Source of the DNA: Arcobacter sp.
Lineage (GTDB): Bacteria > Campylobacterota > Campylobacteria > Campylobacterales > Arcobacteraceae
Direction: 5' to 3'
Length of the DNA: 64,000 nucleotides
Assembly (NCBI GenBank): GCA_002869535.1
Contig: PKUK01000009.1
Location: forward strand, 186,001-250,000
This document shows positions 23,839 through 51,093 of this stretch, in pieces. The position numbers and the translations under genes are program-made. The notes under the pieces were generated by a model. It was not told where the DNA came from. It was given only the letters and a program-made list of their open reading frames with translations, and searched no databases. Positions within the stretch are counted from its first letter, which is position 1. Every line of letters begins with the position of its first letter.

Positions 23839-25455
23839 ATGAAAATAAACACAAACATAGCTTCGCTTAATGCACAAGAAGCAGCAACAAAGACTAATAG
23901 TAAGATTGCTAGTTCATTAGAAAAACTTTCTACTGGATTGAAAGTAAACAAAGCTAGTGATGATGCATCTGGGTTAGCAATTGCTGATAAACTTAGAACT
24001 CAAGCTACATCTATTGGTCAAGGTATTGACAATGGTAACTCTGCAGTTGCACTAATACAAATTGCAGATAAATCAATGGCAGAACAATCAAATATTCTTG
24101 ATATTGTTAAATCTAAATTAATTCAAGCAAATACAGATACTACATCTCCTGATGGTAGAGAAGCTATTAGAAAAGATATAGTAAAACTGTTAGAACAACT
24201 AGATAATATCGCTCAACAAACGAGCTACAATGGTATTACACTATTACAAGATAGTTATGACAGTATGCAAAGTTCAAGAGAACTAAGTTTTCAAATTGGT
24301 GGAAACAAAGATGATATTATGCAAAGTTCGTATATCCAATCAAATACTATTGGACTAGGTGGAGGAACTGAAGCCATAGATCAAGTTTCTGGATCAAGCA
24401 CTAGAGGTAACCTTATTTCACAAGGTTTATCAACAATTGTTAGCGCTGATGGAACAAATGCAATAACCCTTGATGGTTATGCTACAGGAACTGCAATAGA
24501 CGTAAATATTTATGGAATTACAAGTGAAATTACTTTTAATACATCATCAGGAACAATTAGTAACGTTGACACAAATACTCAATTAATTTTGGAAAGTTTA
24601 GCAAATATAAGCACAACAACAGCTGTTTCAGGTGGAAAGGTTAAGTTTACTCGAGTTGCAGCAGATGGAACAGAGACTAATTTAACAGTTGCACAAGCAA
24701 AAGTATTTACAGCAGCTTCTGGTACACTAAAAGCAACAGTAAAAGTTAGTGATATAAATGGAAATGTTTTAGGTGATTTTTCTATTAGTACATCGGGAGG
24801 AGCAGCGGGTATCTCTTCTGCTATTACAATTAATGCAGGAACAATTGTAAATGGTATTCAAGAGAATCCATCATTTAGTGTTTCAACAGGTACAACAATA
24901 GATTTAGGTGGTAATGCTATAAACACCTTAGCAATTGGCAGTACTATTGATACATATAGTGTAGGAGCCATGACCATAGAACAAAGTTCCGCATCTGGAA
25001 GTATAACCTTTGGGGCAAATGCACAAAACCTAATGATACAAAATAATAATGACCAAGTTGGAGAAGAACTAAAACTGACAACTGGTGTTAATAATGATGG
25101 AGCAACTGGTACAATTTATGGTGGTGGTTCACTTTCAGGATTAAAAGCATTAGCAACTGGACAATTAACAAAAGTTCAAGCAGATAAATATCAAAGTATA
25201 GTTGATGCAGCACTAAGTCAAATGAATATTTACAGATCTGACTTGGGTTCTACTCAAAATCAAATAGAATCAGCAGTTAGAAACTTAATGACACAAGAGA
25301 CAAATGTAAAAGCTGCTGAGTCAGTTATTAGAGATGTTGATTATGCTGAAGAGTCTGCAAACTTTAATAAAAACAATATCATCTCACAAGCAGGGTCATA
25401 TGCTATGAGTCAAGCTAACTCTGTACAACAAAACGTATTGAGACTTTTACAATAG
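23839..25455 (+). CDS. Flagellin (first copy)
   Basis: Main flagellar filament subunit, 538 residues, intact. The conserved N-terminal D0/D1 region (about 1-170) has NTNIASLNAQEAA and SSLEKLSTGLKVNKASDD, and the C-terminal D1/D0 region (about 440-538) has SDLGSTQNQIESAVRNL and ends QQNVLRLLQ. The middle 270 residues are Ser/Thr/Gly-rich and variable, the likely surface-exposed and O-glycosylated domain. The second copy downstream is nearly identical at both ends. GCATATAA at 23811-23818 weakly resembles a sigma-28 -10 box; this is a low-confidence promoter guess. A terminator follows at 25556-25584. Confidence 0.96.
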   Translation: MKINTNIASLNAQEAATKTNSKIASSLEKLSTGLKVNKASDDASGLAIADKLRTQATSIGQGIDNGNSAVALIQIADKSMAEQSNILDIVKSKLIQANTDTTSPDGREAIRKDIVKLLEQLDNIAQQTSYNGITLLQDSYDSMQSSRELSFQIGGNKDDIMQSSYIQSNTIGLGGGTEAIDQVSGSSTRGNLISQGLSTIVSADGTNAITLDGYATGTAIDVNIYGITSEITFNTSSGTISNVDTNTQLILESLANISTTTAVSGGKVKFTRVAADGTETNLTVAQAKVFTAASGTLKATVKVSDINGNVLGDFSISTSGGAAGISSAITINAGTIVNGIQENPSFSVSTGTTIDLGGNAINTLAIGSTIDTYSVGAMTIEQSSASGSITFGANAQNLMIQNNNDQVGEELKLTTGVNNDGATGTIYGGGSLSGLKALATGQLTKVQADKYQSIVDAALSQMNIYRSDLGSTQNQIESAVRNLMTQETNVKAAESVIRDVDYAEESANFNKNNIISQAGSYAMSQANSVQQNVLRLLQ

Positions 25456-25466
25456 TAAATAGTCGT

Positions 25467-25494
25467 TAAAGTAGTAGTTTTACTACTACGATAT
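25467..25494 (+). promoter_or_regulatory. Possible sigma-28-like promoter between the flagellin genes
   Basis: TAAA (25467-25470) and CGATAT (25489-25494) with 18 bases between recall flagellar sigma-28 elements. It stands just after the first flagellin stop and before the terminator at 25556, so it would make only a short RNA of about 85 bases, not the second flagellin. The stretch between also forms GTAGTA-GTTT-TACTAC, so the match may be chance within a hairpin. Confidence 0.25.
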
Positions 25495-25555
25495 ACGTTT
25501 CCTCGAAAACGTTCTTAGATTACTTCAATAAGAAGCAAATTTAACATTAAAATTT

Positions 25556-25584
25556 AAAAGAGAGCTTTTTAGCTCTCTTTTTTT
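25556..25584 (+). terminator. Rho-independent terminator after the first flagellin
   Basis: An 11-bp stem AAAAGAGAGCT (25556-25566) with AGCTCTCTTTT (25571-25581), a TTTT loop and a following T run. It separates the two flagellin transcripts. The next 160 bases to the second flagellin hold a palindrome GTGAT-TT-ATCAC (25709-25720) but no promoter that can be named with confidence. Confidence 0.9.
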
Positions 25585-25748
25585 ATTGCCAACTTATATT
25601 TTAAACTACTTTTAAGAATTGGTATGTAATAATTCTATTTACAAAGTAGGGATCAATTGATTCCAAAGAGTTTTACTCTATGCTCACTAACCTGAGAATG
25701 TTTCCGTCGTGATTTATCACAATGTGTCATAATTAAAAAGGATTTATT

Positions 25749-27242
25749 ATGAGAATTAATACTAACATTGCTTCATTAAATGCAAGAGAAGCAGCTACAA
25801 ATACGCAAAATAAAATTGCAAGTTCATTAGAAAAACTTTCTACTGGATTAAAAATTAATAAAGCATCTGATGATGCATCTGGTTTAGCAATTGCTGATAA
25901 ATTAAGAACACAAGCAAGTTCTATTGGTCAAGGTATTGACAACGGTAACTCTGCTGTTTCATTAATACAAATTGCTGATAAATCTATGTCTGAACAATCA
26001 AATATTCTTGATGTTGTTAAAGCTAAATTAATTCAAGCAAATACTGATACTACTTCTGATGCAGGTAGAGAAGCTATTAGAAAAGATATCAATAAACTAC
26101 TTGAACAATTAGATAATATTGCACAGCAAACGAACTATAATGGTACAACACTATTACAAGGTGGTTATGATGAAACTCAAGGGTCTAATCAATTATCATT
26201 CCAAATTGGTGGAAATAAAGATGATATTATTCAAGCAGAGTCTATTCAATCTAATACACTAGGTCTTGGTGGAGGAACTGAAGAGTTGGTTCAAACATCA
26301 GGTGCTAGTGATAGAAATAATATCGTTTCACAAGGTACATCTATCGTTGTTACTGGTGATGGTACAAATGATATTACAATTGATGGTTTCTCTTCAGGAA
26401 CTTCACTAGATGTAAACTTGTCAGGTATCTCAGGAGCTATTACATTTAGTGGTTAAGGAACAATTAGTAATACTGATGCAGTTACACAATTAGTTTTAGA
26501 AAAACTAGCTGCTGCATCTGGTGGTAAATCAGTAGAAGTAAGTGATATTAATGGGAACGTTATTGGTACATTCTCAATATCTTCAGGTGGTTCAATCACA
26601 AAAGTTCAAGCAAGTTCAATTAATGGTATTGCAGGAGCTATTACATTTACAGTAACATCTGGTACTACTATCAATCTTGGTGGTAATACTATTGATACAG
26701 TAAATAACTCATCTACTACTACAAGTGGAGCAAGTCCAGCATTATTAAGTACATTTAGTATTGGTTCTATGCAAATCACTCAAAGTTCTGCATCTGGAAG
26801 TTTAACAGTTAGTGGAAATGCACAAAACTTAAATATTACAAACTTAAATAGTGCAAATGGTGAAGAAATCACAGTTTCAACTGCTGCTTCTGGTGGTAAA
26901 ATTACAGGGGGAGGAACACTTTCTGGATTAAAATCTTTAGCGGCTAATCAATTGACACGTGCTCAAGCCGATAAATTCCAAGGTGTAGTTGATGCTGCAA
27001 TTTCTCAACTTAATACATATAGAGCGGACTTAGGTTCTACTCAAAATCAAATTGAATCTGGGGTTAGAAACTTAATGACCCAAGAGACAAATGTAAAAGC
27101 TGCTGAGTCTATTATTAGAGATGTTGATTATGCTGAAGAATCTTCAAACTTCAACAAACAAAATATTATCTCACAAGCTGGATCGTATGCTATGAGTCAA
27201 GCTAACTCTATCAAACAAAATGTTTTAAGATTATTACAATAG
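25749..27242 (+). pseudogene. Second flagellin, interrupted by one in-frame TAA
   Basis: The same reading frame runs from the ATG at 25749 to the stop at 27240-27242, 497 codons, with one TAA at 26454-26456 (codon 236). Both halves are well preserved: the N-terminal half matches the first flagellin from MRINTNIASLNA on, and the C-terminal half ends IKQNVLRLLQ. In the paralogue the aligned phrase is ITF-NTSSGTISN; here it is ITFSG, stop, GTISN, so the stop most simply replaces a serine TCA by one C-to-A change. A 235-residue product lacks the C-terminal D0/D1 half and could not assemble. The rest of the frame shows no other decay, so the change is recent, an assembly error, or read through. 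The ribosome site AAAAAGGA is intact. Confidence 0.9.
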
Positions 27243-31170: not shown

Positions 31171-34100
31171 ATGTCATTAGATCAAGTTCAGCAAAAAGCA
31201 CTACAAACTTACAATGAAAACCTAGAATTTTTTAAACAAAATCATCCTGATATTTATAAAAATCTAGAACTTTATGCCACTGCAATTGATTTAGGGCAAG
31301 TAAAACCTCAATTTGAACTTCAATACTTAAATACACACTTTGATATAGTTAATCCAAATACAAAACAATTTTTATACACACAAAACTCAAATGAAGTTTC
31401 TCAAAAAATTGCTGATGATATAAACTTTGATGCGACTGTAAATAGTTTTAAGACATACTATGAATTTAAGTACAATGATGCTGTTGCAAAAAAAGCACTA
31501 GAACAAGATATCTTAGCACCTCATACAATTGGAAATGCTCCGGTAATAAATTTTGTTGATAAAAATTTACCAAGTCCTCAAAATCTAAAAGAAATTCACA
31601 AATTCATCATATTTGGAGTTTTATTAGGTATTCATATCCCATTAATTCATCAGAAATTAAATTCTAAGGTTTATTTAATAGTCGAACCAAATTTATAATT
31701 TTTTAGATTGTCTTTATTCGTTACAAATTATGCAAACCTATCAAAACAAACAAAACTTTTTTTCTCTGTTGCACAAAATGATTTTGAATTTAAAAAGACT
31801 TTTGAAGCTTTTTATGGAGAACTTTTTATTTTCAACCATTATTTAAAGTTTGTAAATTTATCAGCTGGATCTGATATATATATGAAAACTATTCAAAACT
31901 TCTTAGTATCACAAGGTCATTTATTATACTCATACGATAGGACATTTTTAAGTTTAAGTAGAACTAACTCTTATATTAGTCAAAACTTTAGATTATTAAA
32001 CATAAAACAAAAACAAAATCTTAAGCCTTTTGAAAAACCAGTACTTTATCTCTCAGCTGGTCCATCATTACAACATAATATTGACTTTGTAAAGAAAAAC
32101 CAAAACTATTTTACAATAGTAGCAATATACGCGACTATGCCAATTTTGGAGAGAAATGGAATAAAACCTGACATTATTACTCAATATGATGAGCAAGATG
32201 TACAAGTTTTAAATACGCTTGCTAAATTAAAAGATATAAACTATTTCAAGGACACTATATTTATTTTTGCATCTCATGTAAATGCAAAACTAATGAACTC
32301 TTTTCCAAAAGAAAATATTTTTATTTTTCAAGCGATGTTTGAATTAAAAGAAAATTTTGGGACTTTAACGAGTCCAAGTATTGGTGAGTTAACTTATGCC
32401 TTACTTCTTTTATTTCAAGCAAAAGAAGTTTATCTTTTAGGTCTTGATTTTGCTATGGACGTAGAGTCTGGTGATACACATATTGAAGGACACTCAGGGT
32501 CTGGAGCATTTAATAAACTAAAAGACTTAGAAGAATCTGATGATAAAAACTACTCATACAGAAAAAACACTATACTTGTAAAAGGTAACTTTTTAGCAGA
32601 AGTTAAGTCCGTACCAGTATTTAAAACTAATATTGATACATTTGCTCAGTTTTCAGAAATGTTTAAAGATTCAACTCAAAATATTTACAATCTGTCAAAT
32701 GGCGCTTATTTAAATGGTACAACACCATTAAAAATTGAAGATATTAATCTATCTAGTTTTTCTGTAAATGAAAAAGAAGCATTAAAAAACGAACTTTCCA
32801 ATGCTTTTATAACTATAAGTGAAGCTGGTTATAATCAAAAAGATTTAGAGAAACTAAACCTTAAACTAAGTAGTGTAAAAAAAATCAAGAAAAATTTAGA
32901 CCAATTTCAAAAAATGAAAAAATACAAAGATTTTGAAGAGTATAAAGGGCATTTAATTAACCTTATTCAAAATATTTTATTTGAGAAACATCAATGTGAA
33001 GATTTACAATCAATCTTAATCAACTACTCTTCACATAACCTTCATCATATTTTTTATCTTTTTGATTTAGAAAGTAAAAATGATAATAAAAAATATATCT
33101 ATGAAATAAATAAAAATTTACTTACTCAGCTAAATAAAATAGTTGATACTTATGTAATATCAATTTCATATTCACAAGATGAAAATAGTATTGCATTAAA
33201 GAAATTAAATAAATACTTAAAAGAGTATTCAATAAAAAATAGTATTTATTCAGAACCATTTTTCAAAGAGTTAGTAGAAACTTCAAAACAAGGTTATCAA
33301 TACGAATTTGGAATGAATTCAATCGGATTTTTTGCAATTGAAGATAACCTTTCTAATAAAAATTTTATTTGTTATGTAAAAGAGTTACTTAATAAATTCC
33401 CAGAAATTAAACTTAAACTTTTTTACTTTTTTGATTTTCAAAAAGTTCAAGCTCAATATATTTTTAAACAAGAATTATCTAGAATTGAATTAATAATCCC
33501 ACACAATATTAATACAATAACAAGCACTGTAGAACTATGGCTTGAAACATATAATAATACAATAAATGTGAAAAAGATAGATGACATTATATTAAATAAC
33601 TATGAGAATATTTACTCTTCTATGTTTACTCAGATTGAATATCAATCTGCCCTTAATAATATTGATGAAGAGAAAGAAGAATTTAATACTGATAAGTTCA
33701 CATTAACAAAAAAGATTAAGCACAATTTTGTCTTACCAAATACCAAATATTTTGAATTTGCAAATAGTTTAAAATTTGATATTGATAAAGATTTATTAAA
33801 TGAAAAATATCTAAAAGAGTATATAGGTTTTTTTGCAATTAAAGAGAATCTTCAACAAGAATTTGTAAATAAAATTGTAGAAATTTGTAATAAATTTCAA
33901 AATGTAAAATTTTCAGTATTTTATTTTGACGAAGTGGATGTAAAAGAGTTTATAAAAATTTTTGGAAGGGTTATCAATAGATTTAACTTTATTACACCAA
34001 AAAATATTTTTGATATTACAGATAATATAGAAGTTTGGGTACAAGCCTCAATTAAAAATCAAAGTTTTTTACATACTAAGATTTATGGATTAATCAATAA

Positions 34101-35379
34101 TACAGTTAATATTCATCCTATTGTTTTAAAAGAGGAGTATGCTATAAAAGATACTTCAACTAACTATTTAGAGTGTTTAATTGAAAACTACAATGAGACA
34201 ATTTTTACTAAGGCTCTAAATGATAATCTAGATGAAGAAAGATTACAAAATACAGACCCAGAAGACAACATTGGATTTTTAGCTACAGAAGATAATCTAG
34301 AAGATAAAGAATTTATAAAACTCATGTCCATACTTTTTGAAAAAAATTATAACATAAGATATAAAGCATTTTATTTTAATGAAGAACAAAAAGATTTAAC
34401 TTCGATAATTTTCGCAGACTATATTCAACAAATTGATTTTATCATCCCTATAACTATTTATGATATTGTTGAAAACATATCTACATATATTTACTCTTTT
34501 ATAAATTTTAAAAAACCTAAAACGTCTAATTATCATAAAATATGGCAAATTTTGAATGACACAAAAGTAAATTTATTTAAAATTCATTTATTTGAAGAAA
34601 TAAAAGATGAAAATATTTTTAATTATTCTCTTAAGTTAATAGATAAATCTAAAAGAAGCTTCACTAAATCTATTGTTTCTAATATATATAAAGATTCTTC
34701 AAGTTATGACATATTATTTTTTAAAAATATTTTTAATCAAAAAATTAAATTAGATAATTCAGCTAAAAATACTTTAGCATTTTTAGCTACTAATGACAAT
34801 ATTAATGATGATGAATTTATTAAATACTTGTTAAATTTAAAAAAAGTACACCCTTCTATAACTATTAATGCCTATTATTTTAATGATTCTGACAGTAAGC
34901 TAGTAAAAGAAAAGCTTCATAATACAAATTTTTCAATATTTAAATTTACTAAAGACAATTTTTTTAACAATTTAAAAATTTTTATAAATAATAAGAACTC
35001 TATTTTTTATACAGATATCGAACAAAAAATGTTACCATTTAATAAGAATGTTTTTTACTTAGCATATAATAGAGAGTTATCTAGAATAAACTTATCTGAA
35101 TGTGCAGTTAATAAAGATGATTTTTATCTAAATTCATTAAAAGAAATTGGTATTGATCCAAGTATTTTTGAAAAATTCAATTATAATTATCAAATAATTC
35201 TTGCCAATAATTTCTTAGAAAAGAATTCAAATGATATACAAGTTAATAATACAACCCTAGAATATATTATCCATTATATGCACATTGAGTTTGCACTATA
35301 TAACAATTCTTTTATAGAAAAGATTTATCAACTAAGAAAACTTCATTTACCAAATCTTTTTAAGTCTAATGAGGAATAA
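31171..35379 (+). pseudogene. Very long Maf-type motility accessory factor, interrupted by one TAA
   Basis: Maf proteins (DUF115) transfer nonulosonic acids such as legionaminic or pseudaminic acid to flagellin. One frame spans 1402 codons from the ATG at 31171 with a single TAA at 31696-31698 (codon 176), at the point where the family has EPNLE-FRLSLF: here EPNL, stop, FFRLSLF, so GAA to TAA by one change is likely. The transferase core has LSAGPSLQHN (about 295-304). Beyond it, four tandem units begin with IGFFAIEDNL (718), IGFFAIKENL (885), IGFLATEDNL (1034) and LAFLATNDNI (1202), each 149-168 residues apart. The typical family length is about 600-700, so this is twice as long. It overlaps legB by one base. 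Confidence 0.88.
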
Positions 35380-36560
35380 TGCTATATTTAATTGGAAGAA
35401 ATCAAGAGTTGTTTGAAAATGATATCCATAATAAAAAAGAGTGTTTAAAAGAAATTGTTACTTCATCTTCTTTTTTGGTACTTGGTGCAGCAGGGAGTAT
35501 TGGGCAAGCTGTTACAAAAGAAATATTTAAACGAAATCCTAAAAAACTTCATGTTGTTGATATTAGTGAAAATAATATGGTTGAGTTGGTTCGAGATATT
35601 AGAAGTTCTTTTGGTTATATAGAAGGTGAATTTGCAACTTTTGCCTTAGATATTGGAAGTTATGAATATGACGCTTTTATAAAAGCTGATGGCAAGTATG
35701 ATTATGTATTAAATTTATCTGCATTAAAGCATGTAAGAAGTGAAAAAGATCCTTTTACTTTAATGAGAATGATTGAAACTAATATATTTAATACAGATAA
35801 AACACTTAGACAATCTATTGAAAATAATACAAAAAAATACTTCTGCGTATCCACAGATAAAGCTACTAATCCAGTAAATATGATGGGTGCAAGTAAAAAA
35901 ATCATGGAAATGTTTGTTATGAGAAAATCAAAACAAATAAATGTTTCAATGGCAAGATTTGCAAATGTTGCTTTTAGCGATGGAAGTCTACTTCATGGAT
36001 TTAATCAAAGAATTCAAAAAAATCAACCAATCGTTGCGCCTAACGATATTAGAAGATATTTTGTTACACCTCAAGAAAGTGGTGAATTATGTTTGATGTC
36101 TTGTATATTTGGAGAAAATAGAGATATATTTTTTCCCAAATTAAATGAAAACTTGCATCTAATTAGTTTTGCTGAAATTGCTACCAAATATCTTAAGAAT
36201 TTAGGTTATGAACCTTATTTATGTAAAGATGAAGATGAAGCAAGAGAATTAGCAAAAACTTTACCATCTCAGGGGAAATGGCCATGTTTATTTAAAGCAA
36301 GTAATACAACGGGAGAAAAGGATTTCGAAGAATTTTTTACTGATAAAGAAGTTTTGGATATGGAAAGATTTGAAAATCTTGGAATTATTAAAAATGAAGT
36401 GCTCTTTAATGAAAATAAACTGAATCATTTTGAAACTAAAATTAGAAGTTTTAAACAAAATTTATCATGGACAAAAGATGATATTTTAAAAGAATTTTTT
36501 ATGATGATTCCAAATTTTGGACACAAAGAGATAGGCAGGTATCTTGATGGGAAAATGTAA
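35379..36560 (+). CDS. legB: Sugar-nucleotide 4,6-dehydratase, legionaminic acid pathway
   Basis: First committed step toward legionaminic acid: NAD-dependent 4,6-dehydration of GDP- (or UDP-) N-acetylglucosamine. The 393-residue protein has the Rossmann motif GAAGSIGQAV and the active-site STDKATNPVNMMGASKK, where Met replaces the catalytic Tyr position in the CapD/PseB style. The C-terminal extension (about 300-393) is that of the LegB/PtmB group. The ATG overlaps the Maf stop (TAATG) with GAGGAA upstream. The run of leg genes immediately downstream supports legionaminic rather than pseudaminic acid. Confidence 0.9.
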   Translation: MLYLIGRNQELFENDIHNKKECLKEIVTSSSFLVLGAAGSIGQAVTKEIFKRNPKKLHVVDISENNMVELVRDIRSSFGYIEGEFATFALDIGSYEYDAFIKADGKYDYVLNLSALKHVRSEKDPFTLMRMIETNIFNTDKTLRQSIENNTKKYFCVSTDKATNPVNMMGASKKIMEMFVMRKSKQINVSMARFANVAFSDGSLLHGFNQRIQKNQPIVAPNDIRRYFVTPQESGELCLMSCIFGENRDIFFPKLNENLHLISFAEIATKYLKNLGYEPYLCKDEDEARELAKTLPSQGKWPCLFKASNTTGEKDFEEFFTDKEVLDMERFENLGIIKNEVLFNENKLNHFETKIRSFKQNLSWTKDDILKEFFMMIPNFGHKEIGRYLDGKM

Positions 36561-36561
36561 C

Positions 36562-37698
36562 ATGCAAAATATTGTTGAATTTATACAAAAAACTTTTGAT
36601 ACAAAAAAATTTGTCCCACTTCATGAACCTAGGTTTATAGGAAATGAAAAAAAATATCTAAATGACTGTATTGATTCTTCATTTGTATCAAGTGTAGGAG
36701 AATATGTAGACGCATTTGAAAAAAAATTTGCAAAATTTGTACACTCTAAGTATGCAATTGCTGTAGTAAATGGCACAGCCGCGCTTCATATAGCACTTAT
36801 TTTAGCAGGTGTAAAAAAAGATGATGAAGTTATTACTCAACCACTTACATTTATAGCAACATGTAATGCAATTAGTTATATTGGTGCAAAACCAATATTT
36901 ATAGATGTTGATTTAAATACAATGGGTTTAAGTCCCAATTCTTTACAATCTTTTTTAGAAACTAACTGTGAAATAAAAAATAATGAATGCATAAATAAAG
37001 TAACTGGGAAAATTATAAAATCCTGTATACCAATGCATACTTTTGGTCATCCTTGTAGAATTGATGAGATAAAACAAATTTGTGATAAATGGAAAATAAC
37101 TTTAGTTGAAGATGCTGCAGAATCTTTAGGTAGCTATTATAAAAACAAGCATACGGGAACTTTTGGAAAGATTGGTATATTTTCTTTTAATGGAAATAAA
37201 ATAATAACTTCAGGTGGTGGGGGAGTAATTATAACTGATGATGAAATTTTGGCAAAAAAAGCAAAACATATTACAACTACAGCAAAAATTCCTCATCCAT
37301 ATGAATATACACATGACGAAATAGGATTTAACTACCGGCTTCCAAATTTAAATGCAGCACTACTTCTTGCCCAACTTGAGCAACTAGATAATTTTTTAAC
37401 ATCTAAAAGAGACTTAGCAAATATATACAAAGACTTTTTTTCAAACTATGACATAAAGTTTATAGAAGAACCAAAAGAATCTAAATCAAATTATTGGTTA
37501 CAAGCAGTTTTATTAAATAATGAAAAAGAGAAAAATAATTTTTTAAAATATACAAATGAAAATGGTGTCATGACAAGACCTATCTGGAAGCCTTTGAATA
37601 CACTCAAGATGTTCAAAGAATGTCAAAAAACTACTCTAAAAAATGTAAAATACTTGGAGAAAAGAGTTGTAAATATCCCAAGTAGTGTAAGAATATGA
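36562..37698 (+). CDS. legC: PLP-dependent aminotransferase, legionaminic acid pathway
   Basis: DegT/DnrJ/EryC1-type enzyme that aminates the 4-keto sugar made by LegB. It has LTFIATCNAISYIGAKPIF, the PLP aspartate region EDAAESLGSYY, and the Schiff-base lysine in FSFNGNKIITSGGGG. The C-terminal RPIWKPL segment is characteristic of the LegC/PglE group. The ATG at 36562 follows GGGAAAA and leaves a one-base gap to the legB stop; an ATG 15 bases upstream would overlap legB. It overlaps legH by 4 bases (ATGA). Confidence 0.9.
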   Translation: MQNIVEFIQKTFDTKKFVPLHEPRFIGNEKKYLNDCIDSSFVSSVGEYVDAFEKKFAKFVHSKYAIAVVNGTAALHIALILAGVKKDDEVITQPLTFIATCNAISYIGAKPIFIDVDLNTMGLSPNSLQSFLETNCEIKNNECINKVTGKIIKSCIPMHTFGHPCRIDEIKQICDKWKITLVEDAAESLGSYYKNKHTGTFGKIGIFSFNGNKIITSGGGGVIITDDEILAKKAKHITTTAKIPHPYEYTHDEIGFNYRLPNLNAALLLAQLEQLDNFLTSKRDLANIYKDFFSNYDIKFIEEPKESKSNYWLQAVLLNNEKEKNNFLKYTNENGVMTRPIWKPLNTLKMFKECQKTTLKNVKYLEKRVVNIPSSVRI

Positions 37699-38273
37699 AA
37701 AAAGAAAACATTATATTAGTAGGAGCGGGAGGGCATTGCCACAGTGTCATTGATGTAATTGAACAAGAAAATAAATATAACATAATTGGAATAGTTGATA
37801 AAAAGGGAAGCAATTGTAAAGAGATTTTCAATTACAAAACTATTGGATTTGATGATGACTTAGAAAATATTTACAAAACTTGTAAAAATGCAGTAATTAC
37901 GGTAGGACATATAACTTCAAACCATGCAAGAGTAAATTTATTTACAAAATTAAAAAAAATAGGTTTTAATTTACCTATAGTAATTTCTCCTCTTGCTTAT
38001 GTTTCAAAACACTCTTTCATCGAGGAAGGAACTATAATTATGCATCATTGTTTAATAAATGCAAATGTGAAAATTGGCAAAAATTGTATTATTAATACAA
38101 AAGCGCTTATTGAACATGATGCAATTATTGAAGACCATTGTCACATTTCAACTGCAAGCGTTATAAATGGAGCGGTAATAGTCAAAACAAATTCATTTTT
38201 TGGAAGTAATGCCACTTCAAAACAAAATATAACAATTAGTGGCTTTATAAAAGCAGGAGGTATTAGTAAATGA
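37695..38273 (+). CDS. legH: NeuD/PglD-type N-acetyltransferase, legionaminic acid pathway
   Basis: Acetylates the 4-amino sugar. The 192-residue protein has the N-terminal Rossmann-like segment IILVGAGGHCHSVIDVI and a C-terminal left-handed beta-helix of hexapeptide repeats (about 95-190: NANVKIGKNCIIN, EHDAIIEDHCHIS). The catalytic His is in the NTKALIEHDA segment. It is 4-base coupled to legC and to legI. The family also contains O-acetyltransferases, so the exact acceptor atom is inferred from the gene order. Confidence 0.85.
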   Translation: MKKENIILVGAGGHCHSVIDVIEQENKYNIIGIVDKKGSNCKEIFNYKTIGFDDDLENIYKTCKNAVITVGHITSNHARVNLFTKLKKIGFNLPIVISPLAYVSKHSFIEEGTIIMHHCLINANVKIGKNCIINTKALIEHDAIIEDHCHISTASVINGAVIVKTNSFFGSNATSKQNITISGFIKAGGISK

Positions 38274-39274
38274 GTGTTTTTATTATTGCAGAAGCAGGTG
38301 TCAATCATAATGGTTCAATTAAACTTGCAAAACAATTAATTGATGTAGCTGTAGAAGCTGGAGCAGATGCAGTTAAATTTCAAACATTTAAGACTGAAAA
38401 TTTAGTTTCCAAAAATGCACAAAAAGCAGAATATCAAAAAGAGACTACCAATAAAGATGAATCTCAATTTGATATGATTAAAAAACTAGAACTAGATATA
38501 GATAGTCATTACGAATTACTCAAATACTGTAAAATAAAAAATATTATATTCTTATCTACACCATTTGATCATGCCAGTATAGAATTATTAAATAAACTTG
38601 AATTAGATATTTTTAAAATCCCAAGTGGTGAAATTACAAATCTTCCGTACCTTGAACATATTGGTTCTCTCAATAAAAAAATTATTCTTTCAACAGGTAT
38701 GGCAACTATAGGTGAAATTGAATCTGCATTAGAAATACTTATTCAAGCAGGTACATCTAAAGATAATATTAGTGTGCTACATGCAAATACTCAATATCCT
38801 ACACCAATGCAAGATGTAAATTTAAAAGCTATGGTAACAATTGGAAATACCTTTAATATAAACTACGGCTATAGTGATCATACGTTAGGAATTGAAGTCG
38901 ATATTGCAGCAGTTGCATTAGGTGCTACAATTATTGAAAAACATTTTACTTTAAATAAAATGATGGATGGACCAGACCATAAAGCTTCCTTAGAACCTCA
39001 TGAATTAAAAAACATGGTTAATTCAATTAGAAATATTGAAAAAGCCTTAGGTAGTACTATTAAACAAATTACACAAAGTGAAGCACCAAATAAACTTTGT
39101 AGTAGAAAAAGTATTGTTGCAAAAACATTCATAAAAAAAGGTGATATTTTAACAAAAGATAATATCACAATTAAAAGACCAGGGAATGGGATTAGTCCAA
39201 TGAGATGGTATGAAATACTAAATACAAAAGCAATATGTGATTATAATGAAGATGATTTAATAAAATGGAAATAG
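38270..39274 (+). CDS. legI: N,N'-diacetyllegionaminic acid synthase (NeuB family)
   Basis: Condenses the six-carbon amino sugar with phosphoenolpyruvate to the nine-carbon legionaminic acid. The 334-residue NeuB-like barrel has AEAGVNHNGSIKLA, AVKFQTFKTENLV, and YGYSDHTLGIE, with C-terminal SAF domain (about 275-334) that closes the active site (SIVAKTFIKKGDILT). The ATGA overlap with legH and the 10-base overlap with the WbqC gene show tight coupling. Confidence 0.93.
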   Translation: MSVFIIAEAGVNHNGSIKLAKQLIDVAVEAGADAVKFQTFKTENLVSKNAQKAEYQKETTNKDESQFDMIKKLELDIDSHYELLKYCKIKNIIFLSTPFDHASIELLNKLELDIFKIPSGEITNLPYLEHIGSLNKKIILSTGMATIGEIESALEILIQAGTSKDNISVLHANTQYPTPMQDVNLKAMVTIGNTFNINYGYSDHTLGIEVDIAAVALGATIIEKHFTLNKMMDGPDHKASLEPHELKNMVNSIRNIEKALGSTIKQITQSEAPNKLCSRKSIVAKTFIKKGDILTKDNITIKRPGNGISPMRWYEILNTKAICDYNEDDLIKWK

Positions 39275-40002
39275 CATCTATTCATCAACCACCCTACTTA
39301 AGTTGGTTTGGACTACTTGACAAAATTATTAAGTCAGATATCTTTATTATAATGGATGATGTACAATTTAATAGGCGTGCTTTTCAACATAGAACTTTAT
39401 ATTCAAATCCCTCAGGAAAGCCTTCTTATTTAACTCTTTCTGTAGATGCAAAAAATCATCAACTCGATAATTTACTAATTAATGAAGTTAAAGTAAATAA
39501 TATTGAAATAATAAAAAAACACTACGAAATAATCTTAAATCGGTATGGAAAATTCAAAAGCTTTCAAAAATATAAAGAAGAAGTAGAATATATATTCAAT
39601 CAAAAGTATACTCATCTTTTAGAAATTAATCTTAAAATTTTAAATTTCATGTTAAAAGTGTTCAGTATAAATACTCAAATAATATATGCATCTGAATTTA
39701 ATACTCAATTAATTAAGTCAGACCGAATACTTGATTTAGTTAAAGCTTCAGGTTGTACCACTTATTTATCTGGAGTAGGAGCAAAAAATTATATGAATGA
39801 AGAGGATTTCAAAAATAATAATATTCAATTAAATTATCAAGATTTTTATCATATTCAATTTGATCAAAAAACAAAAAAAGACTTTCAAGATGGATGTTTT
39901 GCATTGGAGTTGCCATTTATTCATGAAGACTATATGGAACAACTATATACACATTATGAAAATATTAATCAACTTAATCAACTTAAAAGTATCAAATTTT
40001 AA
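39265..40002 (+). CDS. WbqC-family protein
   Basis: A 245-residue member of the WbqC family, found in polysaccharide loci, recognisable from the opening IHQPPYLSWFGLLDKI, the DDVQFNRRAFQHRT segment and the YLSGVGAKNYM segment. The biochemical role is not settled. Being translationally coupled to legI (10-base overlap) and followed by legG suggests a part in nonulosonic acid decoration. No membrane segment or signal peptide. Confidence 0.85.
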   Translation: MEIASIHQPPYLSWFGLLDKIIKSDIFIIMDDVQFNRRAFQHRTLYSNPSGKPSYLTLSVDAKNHQLDNLLINEVKVNNIEIIKKHYEIILNRYGKFKSFQKYKEEVEYIFNQKYTHLLEINLKILNFMLKVFSINTQIIYASEFNTQLIKSDRILDLVKASGCTTYLSGVGAKNYMNEEDFKNNNIQLNYQDFYHIQFDQKTKKDFQDGCFALELPFIHEDYMEQLYTHYENINQLNQLKSIKF

Positions 40003-40011
40003 AGGTAACTA

Positions 40012-41157
40012 ATGAAAATACTAGCTTTCAGTTCAATTAGATCAGATTATGACTTACTTTCTCCACTATATAAACTTTTAAACAATGATTCTTCCATAAA
40101 TTTTAAACTATTATTATCAGGATCACATTTATCGACTGCTTGTGGATATACAAAAAAATACATTATTGATGATGGTTTTAAAATATTAGCCTCAATTGAA
40201 ACTCTTATAAATTCTGATAGCAATAAATCACGTTTAAAAACTACTAGCTTACTTTTACAAAATAGTATTGATATAATAGATGAATTTAGTCCAGATTTAC
40301 TACTTTATGCTGGAGATAGAGAAGACGTAATCATTTATTCTTTAATAAGCCAGTTTTTACATATTCCAAGTATACATTTTTATGGTGGTGATCATGAAGA
40401 AGATGGTCACCAAGACACATATATAAGACATGCAACCTCTAAACTATCCACATATCATTTTGTTTCAACGAAAGAGCATAGAAATAGGCTATTAGCTTTA
40501 GGTGAGCCGTCATATAGAATACAAAATATTGGAAGTATTAGCTTAGACAAGTTCTTTGACTTTAATCTTTTGGATATTAAAAGTAGTTTTAATCTTTCTT
40601 TCCTGTCAAATTTTGCTCTAGTAATTTTTCATCCCATAGAAGGTGAAAATTCGGGTGAGATATTTAACAATATTCTTAAAGTTTTAGAATCAAAAAATAT
40701 ATTTTCTTTTATCAGTTATCCAAATACAGATCCTGGATATGAAAAAATTATTCAAATCATTGAAAATAATAAAGAAAACAAACAGTTTATTTTTTACAAA
40801 AATCTACCTAGAAACCTATTCTTAACTTTATTTAAAAAATGTGATTTTATTATTGGTAATTCCTCTGCAGGTATATATGAAGCAGCAACTATAAAAAAAG
40901 CAGCTATAAATGTTGGGAAACGACAAAAAAATAGACTTACTGTTAAAAATGTAATTTTTTCTGATATAAATATAGATAATATTTCAAACTCTATTGAGAC
41001 CATTTTTTCTGAAAAGTTTCAAGATAGCCTAAAAACAGTACAAAATCCATATGGTGATGGTAAGAGTGCACAAAAAGCATATAAGTTAATCAAAACGTTA
41101 GATTTTAAAAAAAATCTTATTAAATTTGAAGACCCACTAAAGGTAGCCCATGAATAA
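40012..41157 (+). CDS. legG: Hydrolysing sugar-nucleotide 2-epimerase (NeuC-like), legionaminic acid pathway
   Basis: Releases the nucleotide and inverts C2, giving the substrate of LegI. The 381-residue GT-B-fold protein has YAGDREDVIIY and GGDHEEDGHQD in the middle, FHPIEGENSGE, and the C-terminal GNSSAGIYEAATIKKAAINVGKRQ, all of the UDP-N-acetylglucosamine 2-epimerase NeuC type. It is 8 bases coupled to the deacetylase gene downstream. AAAGGTAAC is the ribosome site. Confidence 0.9.
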   Translation: MKILAFSSIRSDYDLLSPLYKLLNNDSSINFKLLLSGSHLSTACGYTKKYIIDDGFKILASIETLINSDSNKSRLKTTSLLLQNSIDIIDEFSPDLLLYAGDREDVIIYSLISQFLHIPSIHFYGGDHEEDGHQDTYIRHATSKLSTYHFVSTKEHRNRLLALGEPSYRIQNIGSISLDKFFDFNLLDIKSSFNLSFLSNFALVIFHPIEGENSGEIFNNILKVLESKNIFSFISYPNTDPGYEKIIQIIENNKENKQFIFYKNLPRNLFLTLFKKCDFIIGNSSAGIYEAATIKKAAINVGKRQKNRLTVKNVIFSDINIDNISNSIETIFSEKFQDSLKTVQNPYGDGKSAQKAYKLIKTLDFKKNLIKFEDPLKVAHE

Positions 41158-41806
41158 AGTTCTTGTAATAGCTGTTCACCCCGATGATGAAACATTAGGT
41201 TGTGGAGGTACACTTTTAAAATATAAAGCAAATGGAGATGAAATACATTGGCTTATATGTACAACTATTGATAATAAAGATGCATATTATGATAAAAGAG
41301 AAAATGAAATAAAAACTGTAAGTAAATTATATAATTTTAATAGTGTTCATAATTTAAGATTTAAAACAATGAAAGTTGATGGATATAGTACCAGTGAACT
41401 GATTGAGCAAATATCAAAAATTATAAATAAAGTCAAACCAAATATTATTTATTTACCTTTTCAGAATGATGTTCACAGTGACCATAGAATAATTTTTAAC
41501 GCTGCATTCAGCTGTACTAAAACATTTAGGTATCCATTTATCAAAAAAGTTTATATGATGGAAACATTAAGTGAGACAGAGTTTGCAAATGGAGATGCTT
41601 CTCAATCATTTAAAGCAAATGTTTTTGTTGATATTAGTGATTATTTTAAAAAGAAATGTGAAATTATAAAAGTTTTTCAAACAGAATTGGCTGAGCACCC
41701 TTTTCCCAGAAGTATAAAAACAATTGAAGCTCTTGCAATACTTAGGGGCTCTAGTGCAAACTGTACTTATGCTGAAAGTTTTGTTCTTTTAAAAGAAATT
41801 AATTAA
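41150..41806 (+). CDS. PIG-L/LmbE-family deacetylase
   Basis: A zinc-dependent N-deacetylase, 218 residues. The metal site is HPDDE (10-14) with HSDH (109-112). Family members deacetylate GlcNAc derivatives. In the middle of a legionaminic acid cluster it could remove an N-acetyl group so that a different acyl or amidino group can be placed; this is inference. The start overlaps legG by 8 bases. A short inverted repeat lies after its stop (AATTAATTAATTTC region). Confidence 0.85.
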   Translation: MNKVLVIAVHPDDETLGCGGTLLKYKANGDEIHWLICTTIDNKDAYYDKRENEIKTVSKLYNFNSVHNLRFKTMKVDGYSTSELIEQISKIINKVKPNIIYLPFQNDVHSDHRIIFNAAFSCTKTFRYPFIKKVYMMETLSETEFANGDASQSFKANVFVDISDYFKKKCEIIKVFQTELAEHPFPRSIKTIEALAILRGSSANCTYAESFVLLKEIN

Positions 41807-48978: not shown

Positions 48979-51093
48979 TTATTCAATATTTTTAGGAAAA
49001 TAATTGTTTTTCATAAGATATAGACTATCTTTTTTAAAATATAGTTCCAGAGAGTTAGTATAATTGAAATTAATTCTACTAGCCTTTAAACATTGTAAAG
49101 AAAGTTCCTTAAATGATGTTATATCTTTATTGAGAATATCATTTAAAGTATCTTGATCAATAAAATGTTCTATTTTAATAATATTGAACCAAAATAAAAT
49201 TATTTGATAATAGTCAGCAAATATTGTTTCAATTTCATTATTAATTTCTTGATTTTCATATAGTAAAATTATATTGCTATATTGATCTCTTAATTCATTA
49301 TAAATTTCTTGCTCATACTTTTTACTTGAAATAATTATATAATCAGTACTCTTTATATCTAACTTTGAAATAATATTTATTCCGTCTTTTTCTTTTCCCC
49401 ATAATTCTTTATTAGAATCAGTAAAACAAATATTTAAATTTCTAAAGTTATATAGTTTTTGCAGTACATTATCAAAATGTTCTCCTGCCCCATAAATAAT
49501 AAGCTTATTATTTTTAATTAAATCAAAATATGTTTTTATTTTAGCCTTAGATAATTTTACTAACTTATCCTGATAAAATGATGTTAATTTATTTTTTGAA
49601 ACCAAATGAGAGTAATTATTCAAAAATTTTATTAGTGCATTTTTTGAATCACCAATATTTGAAATATTTTTGTTCCTAAATAATTCTATATCACGCGATT
49701 TTTTTTTCATATATTCAATGTCATTTAAATGTTTATTAATTAGTGAAAACAACTCATTTCTAGTCTCTGCAATGTCACCAATAACAGTTAAATTTTTTCC
49801 ATAAAATCCTTCCATTCGATTCAGATAATCTTTATTTGGTAAATAAAATATAACTGGTTTTAAAGTGGCTGTAGCATACATATAAACAGATGAACCAAAT
49901 CCTTCGGAAATCAATACTTGATTTTTAGATAATACATCAAAATATGATGATGAATCATCTAAGTAGAAATTATTGTAATTATTCAATCTATGAATCCTAC
50001 CTTTTACAATAGTATTACTTAAGGAAAAAGGGTGTGGTCGATATATTACTTTTTGATTGTAATATTTTTTGACAATGTCATCTAAAAAAAATTCATCAGT
50101 TTCAGTTGCACTGTATTCCAATGTTATATCACTATAAACACTAGCCATAAACACTATATTTGAAGTCTTTTGTTTATTAGTCTGATAATATTTTATAAAA
50201 TTATCTAATTTAGGATAGCCCAATGAGATACTTTGCCTATTTACATTAATTGCCTGTATTTTAAACCAAATGCAAGTACTAAATCTTTCAATAAACTTAT
50301 TAATAAAAATATTTTTCTTAACATGTTGATTAGCTTTAATGTGAAATTCTTCATGAATAAAAGAGTATTCTAACAAAAATCCATATTTACTACGAGAAGC
50401 ATATAAAGGACTTGCTAAGACACAGCAGTTATTAAACTTACGAATTAATTCTTCTCCATAAAATACCTTTTCATTTTCTTTGTTCAAAGATGTTTTAATA
50501 CCAGCAAAGGTCAACGAGTTATCGACTAATTATAGCAAATAATCAAAATCACTTCTATATTGAAATATTAAAGTATTACTATTTAAATAACCTGCTTTAT
50601 TTAATAGCTCATGAAACAGCTGAAAATAGGTGCTATATGATTTTCCTAATATATCTTTAGCTTGATTAACTGGTATAACTTTTACCAATTTTTCTATGTT
50701 ATACCAAAGTTTATGCTTAAATTCATTATTTGTTAGGAATATGCTTAAAGATAAATCATACATTAAATCTACAATAACACAATTATTTTCATAATGAGTT
50801 ACTAATGAATCTAGAAACATGGGATAGCCAAAATATATAATAACAATTGTCACTTTTTTCTTTGTATATTTACAGTGATGAGAAAAATCAATAAAGCTAC
50901 CATCATCAAAATTGTAAATATCTAGTATTTGTACATCATCCAATTCAGATATACTTTTCAATAAATTATTACAGTTAAATCCAATTGAATAAATTACAAG
51001 GTCTTTAACCTCTAAATTATTAAAATATTCTTTTATATTTTGCTTCGAATTATACTCAAGTTTTTTTCTTAATGTATCTTCTATAACATTCAT
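48979..51093 (-). pseudogene. GT-B glycosyltransferase-like protein, interrupted by one in-frame TAA
   Basis: One frame spans 704 codons from the ATG at 51093; a single TAA at 50530-50532 (codon 188) splits it into a 187-residue N-terminal piece and a long C-terminal piece whose first possible start is a TTG at 50514. The middle part has VIYRPHPFSLSN and SEGFGSSVYMYATATLKPVI, resembling CDP-glycerol glycerophosphotransferase/capsule GT-B proteins. The N-terminal segment (LVIYSIGFNCNNLL) and a later one (LIIYGAGEHFDNVL) both look like a small Rossmann-type sugar-nucleotide-like domain. There is no other disruption. The gene lies with the kinase on the minus strand. Confidence 0.75.

Follow-up and report, generated by a model that had tools for sequence, protein, structure and literature searches.

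The locus studied here raises the question of what a run of tandem repeats is doing at the C-terminus of a Maf-type protein, and whether it serves the flagellin side or the sugar side of flagellar glycosylation. It lies in a 64,000-nucleotide stretch of contig PKUK01000009.1 from Arcobacter sp. (assembly GCA_002869535.1), hereafter the window. The maf frame starts at 31171 and reads through to 35379, codon 176 being TAA in the assembly, and it is linked both to flagellin genes (23839-27242) and to nonulosonic-acid (leg) genes (35379-41806). The parts of the locus are as follows.

23839-25455, + strand: flagellin 1, intact, upstream in the same locus
25749-27242, + strand: flagellin 2, split by a single in-frame TAA at 26454-26456
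31171-31695, + strand: Maf N-terminal domain (PF20157, E 6e-6), the 175 codons before the stop, with 76-90% identity to G002 per 50 residues
31696-31698, + strand: in-frame TAA splitting the maf frame; copies are intact in same-genus relatives
31699-35379, + strand: rest of the maf frame, 1226 codons with no further stop
32011-32457, + strand: Maf catalytic core (PF01973 region), residues 105-253 of the 1226-aa frame
35379-41806, + strand: legionaminic-acid-type block directly 3' of maf, with a 4,6-dehydratase (PF02719), LegC, NeuD-like, NeuB, WbqC-like, NeuC and PIG-L

The Maf-type assignment made in a first-pass annotation of this DNA was borne out. The N-terminal domain scores 26.3 bits against a PF20157 cut-off of 23.5 (45.7 bits in the intact protein of G002), the MptE-like/Maf core (PF01973) is matched at E 6e-31 with 107.9 bits where the cut-off is 34.6, and PDB 5mu5 can be aligned to this core. 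These two domains, as well as a flagellin/nonulosonic-acid locus, are shared with the Maf of Magnetospirillum magneticum. The solved Maf has three domains, the C-terminal one being helical (PMC11339370), whereas the window Maf adds ~700 residues of repeats that are missing from other Mafs of ~680 aa. Across 104 genomes of the family, the frames of ordinary Mafs come to about 620-700 aa and end ahead of the first repeat. The single open chain of about 1400 residues described by the first-pass annotation is not present as such, the TAA at codon 176 leaving frames of 175 and 1226 aa; in the same-genus relatives G001 and G002 the gene is uninterrupted and encodes about 1,220-1,230 residues. A second PF01973 match in the same genome, 5.9 kb past the window (L012:4831-6528, G000:C4), sits in a 566-aa frame whose start resembles a GT2 glycosyltransferase; the genome therefore probably has no true Maf besides the long one.

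Selection on the gene is equal on either side of the stop (dN/dS 0.09/1.23 before and 0.13/1.53 after, a ratio of about 0.07-0.08 on both sides), and the stop is therefore recent or an artefact. A control covering 340 kb of this genome found four unrelated genes, each cut by one in-frame stop with matching Pfam parts on either side, namely those for an ammonium transporter (TGA) and for a NuoL-like subunit, an RlmI-like methyltransferase and a CofH/MqnC-like protein (all TAA). A GAF histidine kinase is a probable fifth, and TAA, TAG and TGA are all present among the candidate stops. Since unrelated genes are likewise cut, the maf stop is part of a genome-wide feature of the assembly and carries no particular message about flagella; on the same ground, phase variation and recoding were rejected as its specific cause. 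The stop-cut genes (at L100:14666, L102:2573, L094:12844, L098:4058 and L088:4189) add up to a nonsense load that is out of the ordinary and suggests either sequencing error or a mutator. The lesion in flagellin 2 at 26454 leaves both halves otherwise intact, and relatives with intact copies exist; a loss of the filament, which this stop had suggested, was dropped once the control had found like stops in unrelated genes. Elsewhere in the window, on the reverse strand at 48979-51093, adjacent frames of 187 and 511 aa lie in the same frame a few codons apart without a Pfam match, and could be two genes or another interrupted gene.

The repeats themselves are marked by the motifs IGFFAIEDNL, IGFFAIKENL, IGFLATEDNL and LAFLATNDNI. 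The positions given for them in the first-pass annotation are exact: residues 718, 885, 1034 and 1202 of the read-through frame (33322, 33823, 34270 and 34774 in the window), with spacings of 167, 149 and 168 residues. We refer to the repeat as the tail unit, and its four copies are as follows.

33238-33738, + strand: unit 1 (IGFFAIEDNL), with positional orthologues in G001/G002 (70%) and in G067 and G057 (39-40%)
33739-34185, + strand: unit 2 (IGFFAIKENL), with orthologues in G001/G002 (70%) and G057 (50%)
34186-34689, + strand: unit 3 (IGFLATEDNL), missing in G001/G002; its nearest relative is the first unit of an other-family Maf (L061, 56% over 166 aa)
34690-35376, + strand: unit 4 (LAFLATNDNI) plus a C-terminal tail found only on last units, 74-75% identical to the last unit of G002

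The four are related beyond chance. In pairwise comparison, with E values that refer to a small search space, unit 1 matches unit 2 (37% over 76 aa, E 6e-13), unit 3 (37% over 87 aa, E 7e-11) and unit 4 (33% over 42 aa, E 9e-5), while unit 3 matches unit 2 (34% over 142 aa, E 3e-13) and unit 4 (38% over 48 aa, E 3e-6). The likeness of unit 4 to the others is clear in its first third, and a profile of 22 units recovers all four at E 1e-35 to 1e-48. Within a unit the first half is conserved and the second half extremely variable. Last units have ~200-247 residues and internal ones 145-170, the full tail being present only on the last copy. All units are under purifying selection (dN/dS 0.04-0.33); because this includes the internal ones, these are not mere relics.

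A search of other Mafs, as the first-pass annotation had advised, found the tail unit across Campylobacterota, where it recurs either joined to long Mafs, in one to four copies, or encoded by a gene of its own. Of 399 genomes sampled from the order, 23 had it, as did 22 of 397 from the phylum, and 40-odd units were collected altogether. The carriers belong to families f1, f6, f10, f16 and f20; in these two samples of ~400 genomes we could not find it outside these families, and two single-protein scans of viral contigs detected no relative of it. Homologues of comparable length do carry the repeats, three in G001, G002 and G057 and two in G067, though not four; the refuting condition named in the first-pass annotation, that such homologues would lack them, was thus decided in its favour. 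Taking all fused forms, the window Maf has four copies and others have three (G001, G002 and G057), two (G067, G250, G306 and G579) or one. The separate unit proteins are mostly 320-350 aa long with an N-terminal extension, and their usual neighbour is a Maf without units. In eight genomes (G016, G010, G032, G033, G018, G009, G059 and G085) the unit gene lies directly 3' of, or overlaps, a Maf gene on the same strand; in three others (G011, G068 and G064) the adjacent Maf gene is on the opposite strand. A second unnamed domain, with the motif YG.VHTENYFSF.GF.KK and no Pfam match, precedes the unit in separate unit proteins (for example L046:6003-7013 and L045:7344-8882), and also stands between core and unit in several Mafs of f16 and f20 and in L005 (1341-3671). 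From its sequence pattern, this second domain or N-terminal extension looks like a beta-sandwich.

No Pfam family was found at a meaningful E-value for 22 units, and no PDB sequence matched the unit. The first-pass annotation had also advised an AlphaFold check on one repeat. In a model of unit 3 built from a five-row alignment, the best-predicted part (residues 31-80, pLDDT 83-93) forms a block of the order beta-alpha-beta-alpha-beta, and the second half of the model is mostly below pLDDT 50; the tail unit is thus predicted to be Rossmann-like. The model of unit 2 had a pLDDT of 49 and its Foldseek search was uninformative. Structural matches of unit 3 were weak (best E 0.8, best Z 5.3). OGT was among the best trimmed matches (residues 20-95, Z 4.6, rmsd 2.3 Å over 73 residues), and the strand-helix-strand-helix-strand order is like that of the C-lobes of GT-B enzymes (OGT, TarM, LpxB and WaaC). 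However, those of OGT, TarM and LpxB rank beside methyltransferases at Z 4-5, the ordinary Rossmann level and no better than unrelated Rossmann proteins, and there is no sequence match, so that a relationship to the GT-B C-lobe is possible and unproven. Compared with the N-terminal, core and C-terminal domains of Maf, the unit gave hhalign probabilities of 0.2-1.6% (with shallow profiles), leaving the idea of a duplicated Maf domain without profile support. No residue of the unit could be assigned to catalysis or ligand binding.

The variable halves are where related Mafs part company. For example, identity between the Mafs of G001 and G002 is mostly 90-98% as far as mid-unit 2, and 21-40% beyond that point. 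In genus g39, identity among three Mafs is mostly 85-97% over the core and linker and 8-36% in the last unit, with downstream genes that differ in each; genera g69 and g9 have the same type of drop from a lower starting identity. In the window Maf, units 1, 2 and 4 match G002 at 70-75% and unit 3 is nearest to a unit from another family. Taken together, these alignments show recombination that swaps or adds units with the changeover inside a unit, the second halves moving among species and families. As a separate observation, two unit genes of G073 (L047:6980-7624 and L048:1-603) share identical first 42 residues, diverge after that and precede different sugar loci; each is located at the end of a contig, where repeated DNA would be expected to fall. 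The repeats are real, and constitute an exchangeable accessory domain of long Mafs that has no name as yet.

What the last unit follows when it is exchanged bears on its role, for which the first-pass annotation had offered binding of flagellin or another acceptor, or recognition of the donor. Were they an acceptor module, the units would engage flagellin, alone or complexed with a chaperone, and their variable half would follow the variable domain of flagellin. Maf does act on flagellin, several loci have flagellin genes directly upstream, and the C-terminal domain of the solved Maf has been noted to resemble flagellin and FliS weakly (PMC11339370); the tail unit, however, shows no kinship with that domain in the shallow profiles compared. 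Within the genus of the window, G001 and G002 have Maf cores ~97% alike and flagellin middles 82% alike, yet their last units differ, and the genes downstream are of the heptose type in G001 and of the NulO type in G002. Conversely, the window and G002 share last units that are 74-75% identical although their flagellin middles are just 46% alike, with NeuB-type genes downstream in both. In this trio the last unit tracks the sugar locus and not the flagellin middle, which, for three genomes, favours the sugar side. The first-pass annotation was justified in seeing repeated modules on a Maf-type protein and in suspecting a part in recognition. The flagellin half of its proposal fares worse, and an acceptor module seems to us quite unlikely, while the sugar half has gained support in two lineages. 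Co-travel with sugar genes can also stem from physical linkage, and donor binding is putative. Since G001 retains a NeuB gene elsewhere in its genome, the Maf core may keep its usual donor while the tail may concern a further sugar.

For a wider comparison, each locus was labelled from the genes within 10 kb downstream as having a GT56-like next gene (PF07429), heptose genes (GHMP kinase, nucleotidyltransferase and SIS), an SIS, Gfo/Idh and DHQ-synthase-like set, or NeuB. Between genera, the second halves of last units were more similar within a label than across labels, a level reached by 3 of 5000 permutations and, when run earlier, by 1 of 2000; no association with the label was seen for the first halves (1743 of 2000). 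Seven of the ten between-genus pairs with z >25 share a label; G010 is a member of each remaining pair, and it has a GT56-type second half but a different gene adjoining. Two genomes were held out. The last unit of G579 placed this genome in the GT56 group (z 50), and the gene that follows is GT56-like, as predicted; the tail of G567 matched nothing. By sequence comparison, then, near-identical second halves found across families usually precede the same gene, of GT56 or heptose type. The association is carried by the GT56 group, in two sub-types, together with one heptose pair. With the GT56 group removed the permutation test is negative (1632 of 5000), and the NeuB/NulO (legionaminic-acid) group, to which the window belongs, is not uniform and has no such pattern; for the window itself, the link to the sugar would therefore hold by analogy.

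This confinement of the association to two groups is what would be expected if maf were simply the edge gene of an exchanged glycan island, its second half varying because the breakpoints fall there, with no sugar-specific role. Breakpoints within maf followed by different gene sets are likewise the expected outcome of a long conversion tract. Against this, the second halves are 8-40% identical where the preceding sequence is mostly 85-98%, and so are not ordinary diverged alleles; they are under purifying selection, and separate unit genes are retained beside Maf. We consider such a boundary effect unlikely.

Another potential role is that of docking, in which the last unit would bind the product of the next gene, a transferase or sugar enzyme, and so bring it into a working complex with Maf. 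In three families the unit gene is accompanied by the GT56-like gene, with an overlap of as much as 51 bases between them, and units also occur as proteins in their own right. The next gene of heptose and NulO loci, however, encodes a sugar-biosynthesis enzyme instead of a transferase, and the contact is hypothetical; on the whole we rate docking as unlikely.

The reading we prefer, at a little short of an even chance, is that the tandem units all represent a single Rossmann-like domain without a name, the Maf tail unit, serving Campylobacterota Mafs as an exchangeable accessory, and that the last unit is its glycan-side specificity part. Being the sole copy with a complete tail, the last unit would act in that capacity, either by recognising the sugar made by its neighbours or by working with a neighbouring sugar transferase on flagellin modified by Maf. 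Crossovers between conserved first halves would append a new unit behind older ones and so give rise to the tandem array of the window. More tentatively, and with considerable doubt on our part, flagellar sugars would be switched when such a crossover replaces the variable half of the last unit along with the adjacent sugar genes, the internal repeats being earlier modules that were kept.

Other flagellin glycosylation systems offer comparisons. The flagellin-binding TPR part of Caulobacter FlmG is helical, whereas the tail unit is predicted to be alpha/beta and tracks the sugar genes better than flagellin. FlmG has been described as a modular flagellin glycosyltransferase, and its substrate specificity has been dissected (PMC7591256). 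In C. jejuni, certain maf genes are found together with pse or leg biosynthesis genes and undergo phase variation (PMC13130089); there the maf paralogues vary as whole genes, whereas here parts of one protein are exchanged.

How Maf enzymes match their donor, their acceptor and further glycan enzymes is poorly understood, and the tail units bear on that question. Mafs with near-identical cores (90-98%) but differing tail halves and sugar neighbours, such as those of G001/G002 and of G445/G262/G152, provide natural pairs in which specificity could be located. The exchange of tails points to a within-gene mechanism for changing flagellar glycans. Relatives gain, lose or swap copies of the unit, in some lineages together with the neighbouring sugar genes, and these bacteria may therefore change the sugar coat of their flagella by exchanging the tail of Maf.
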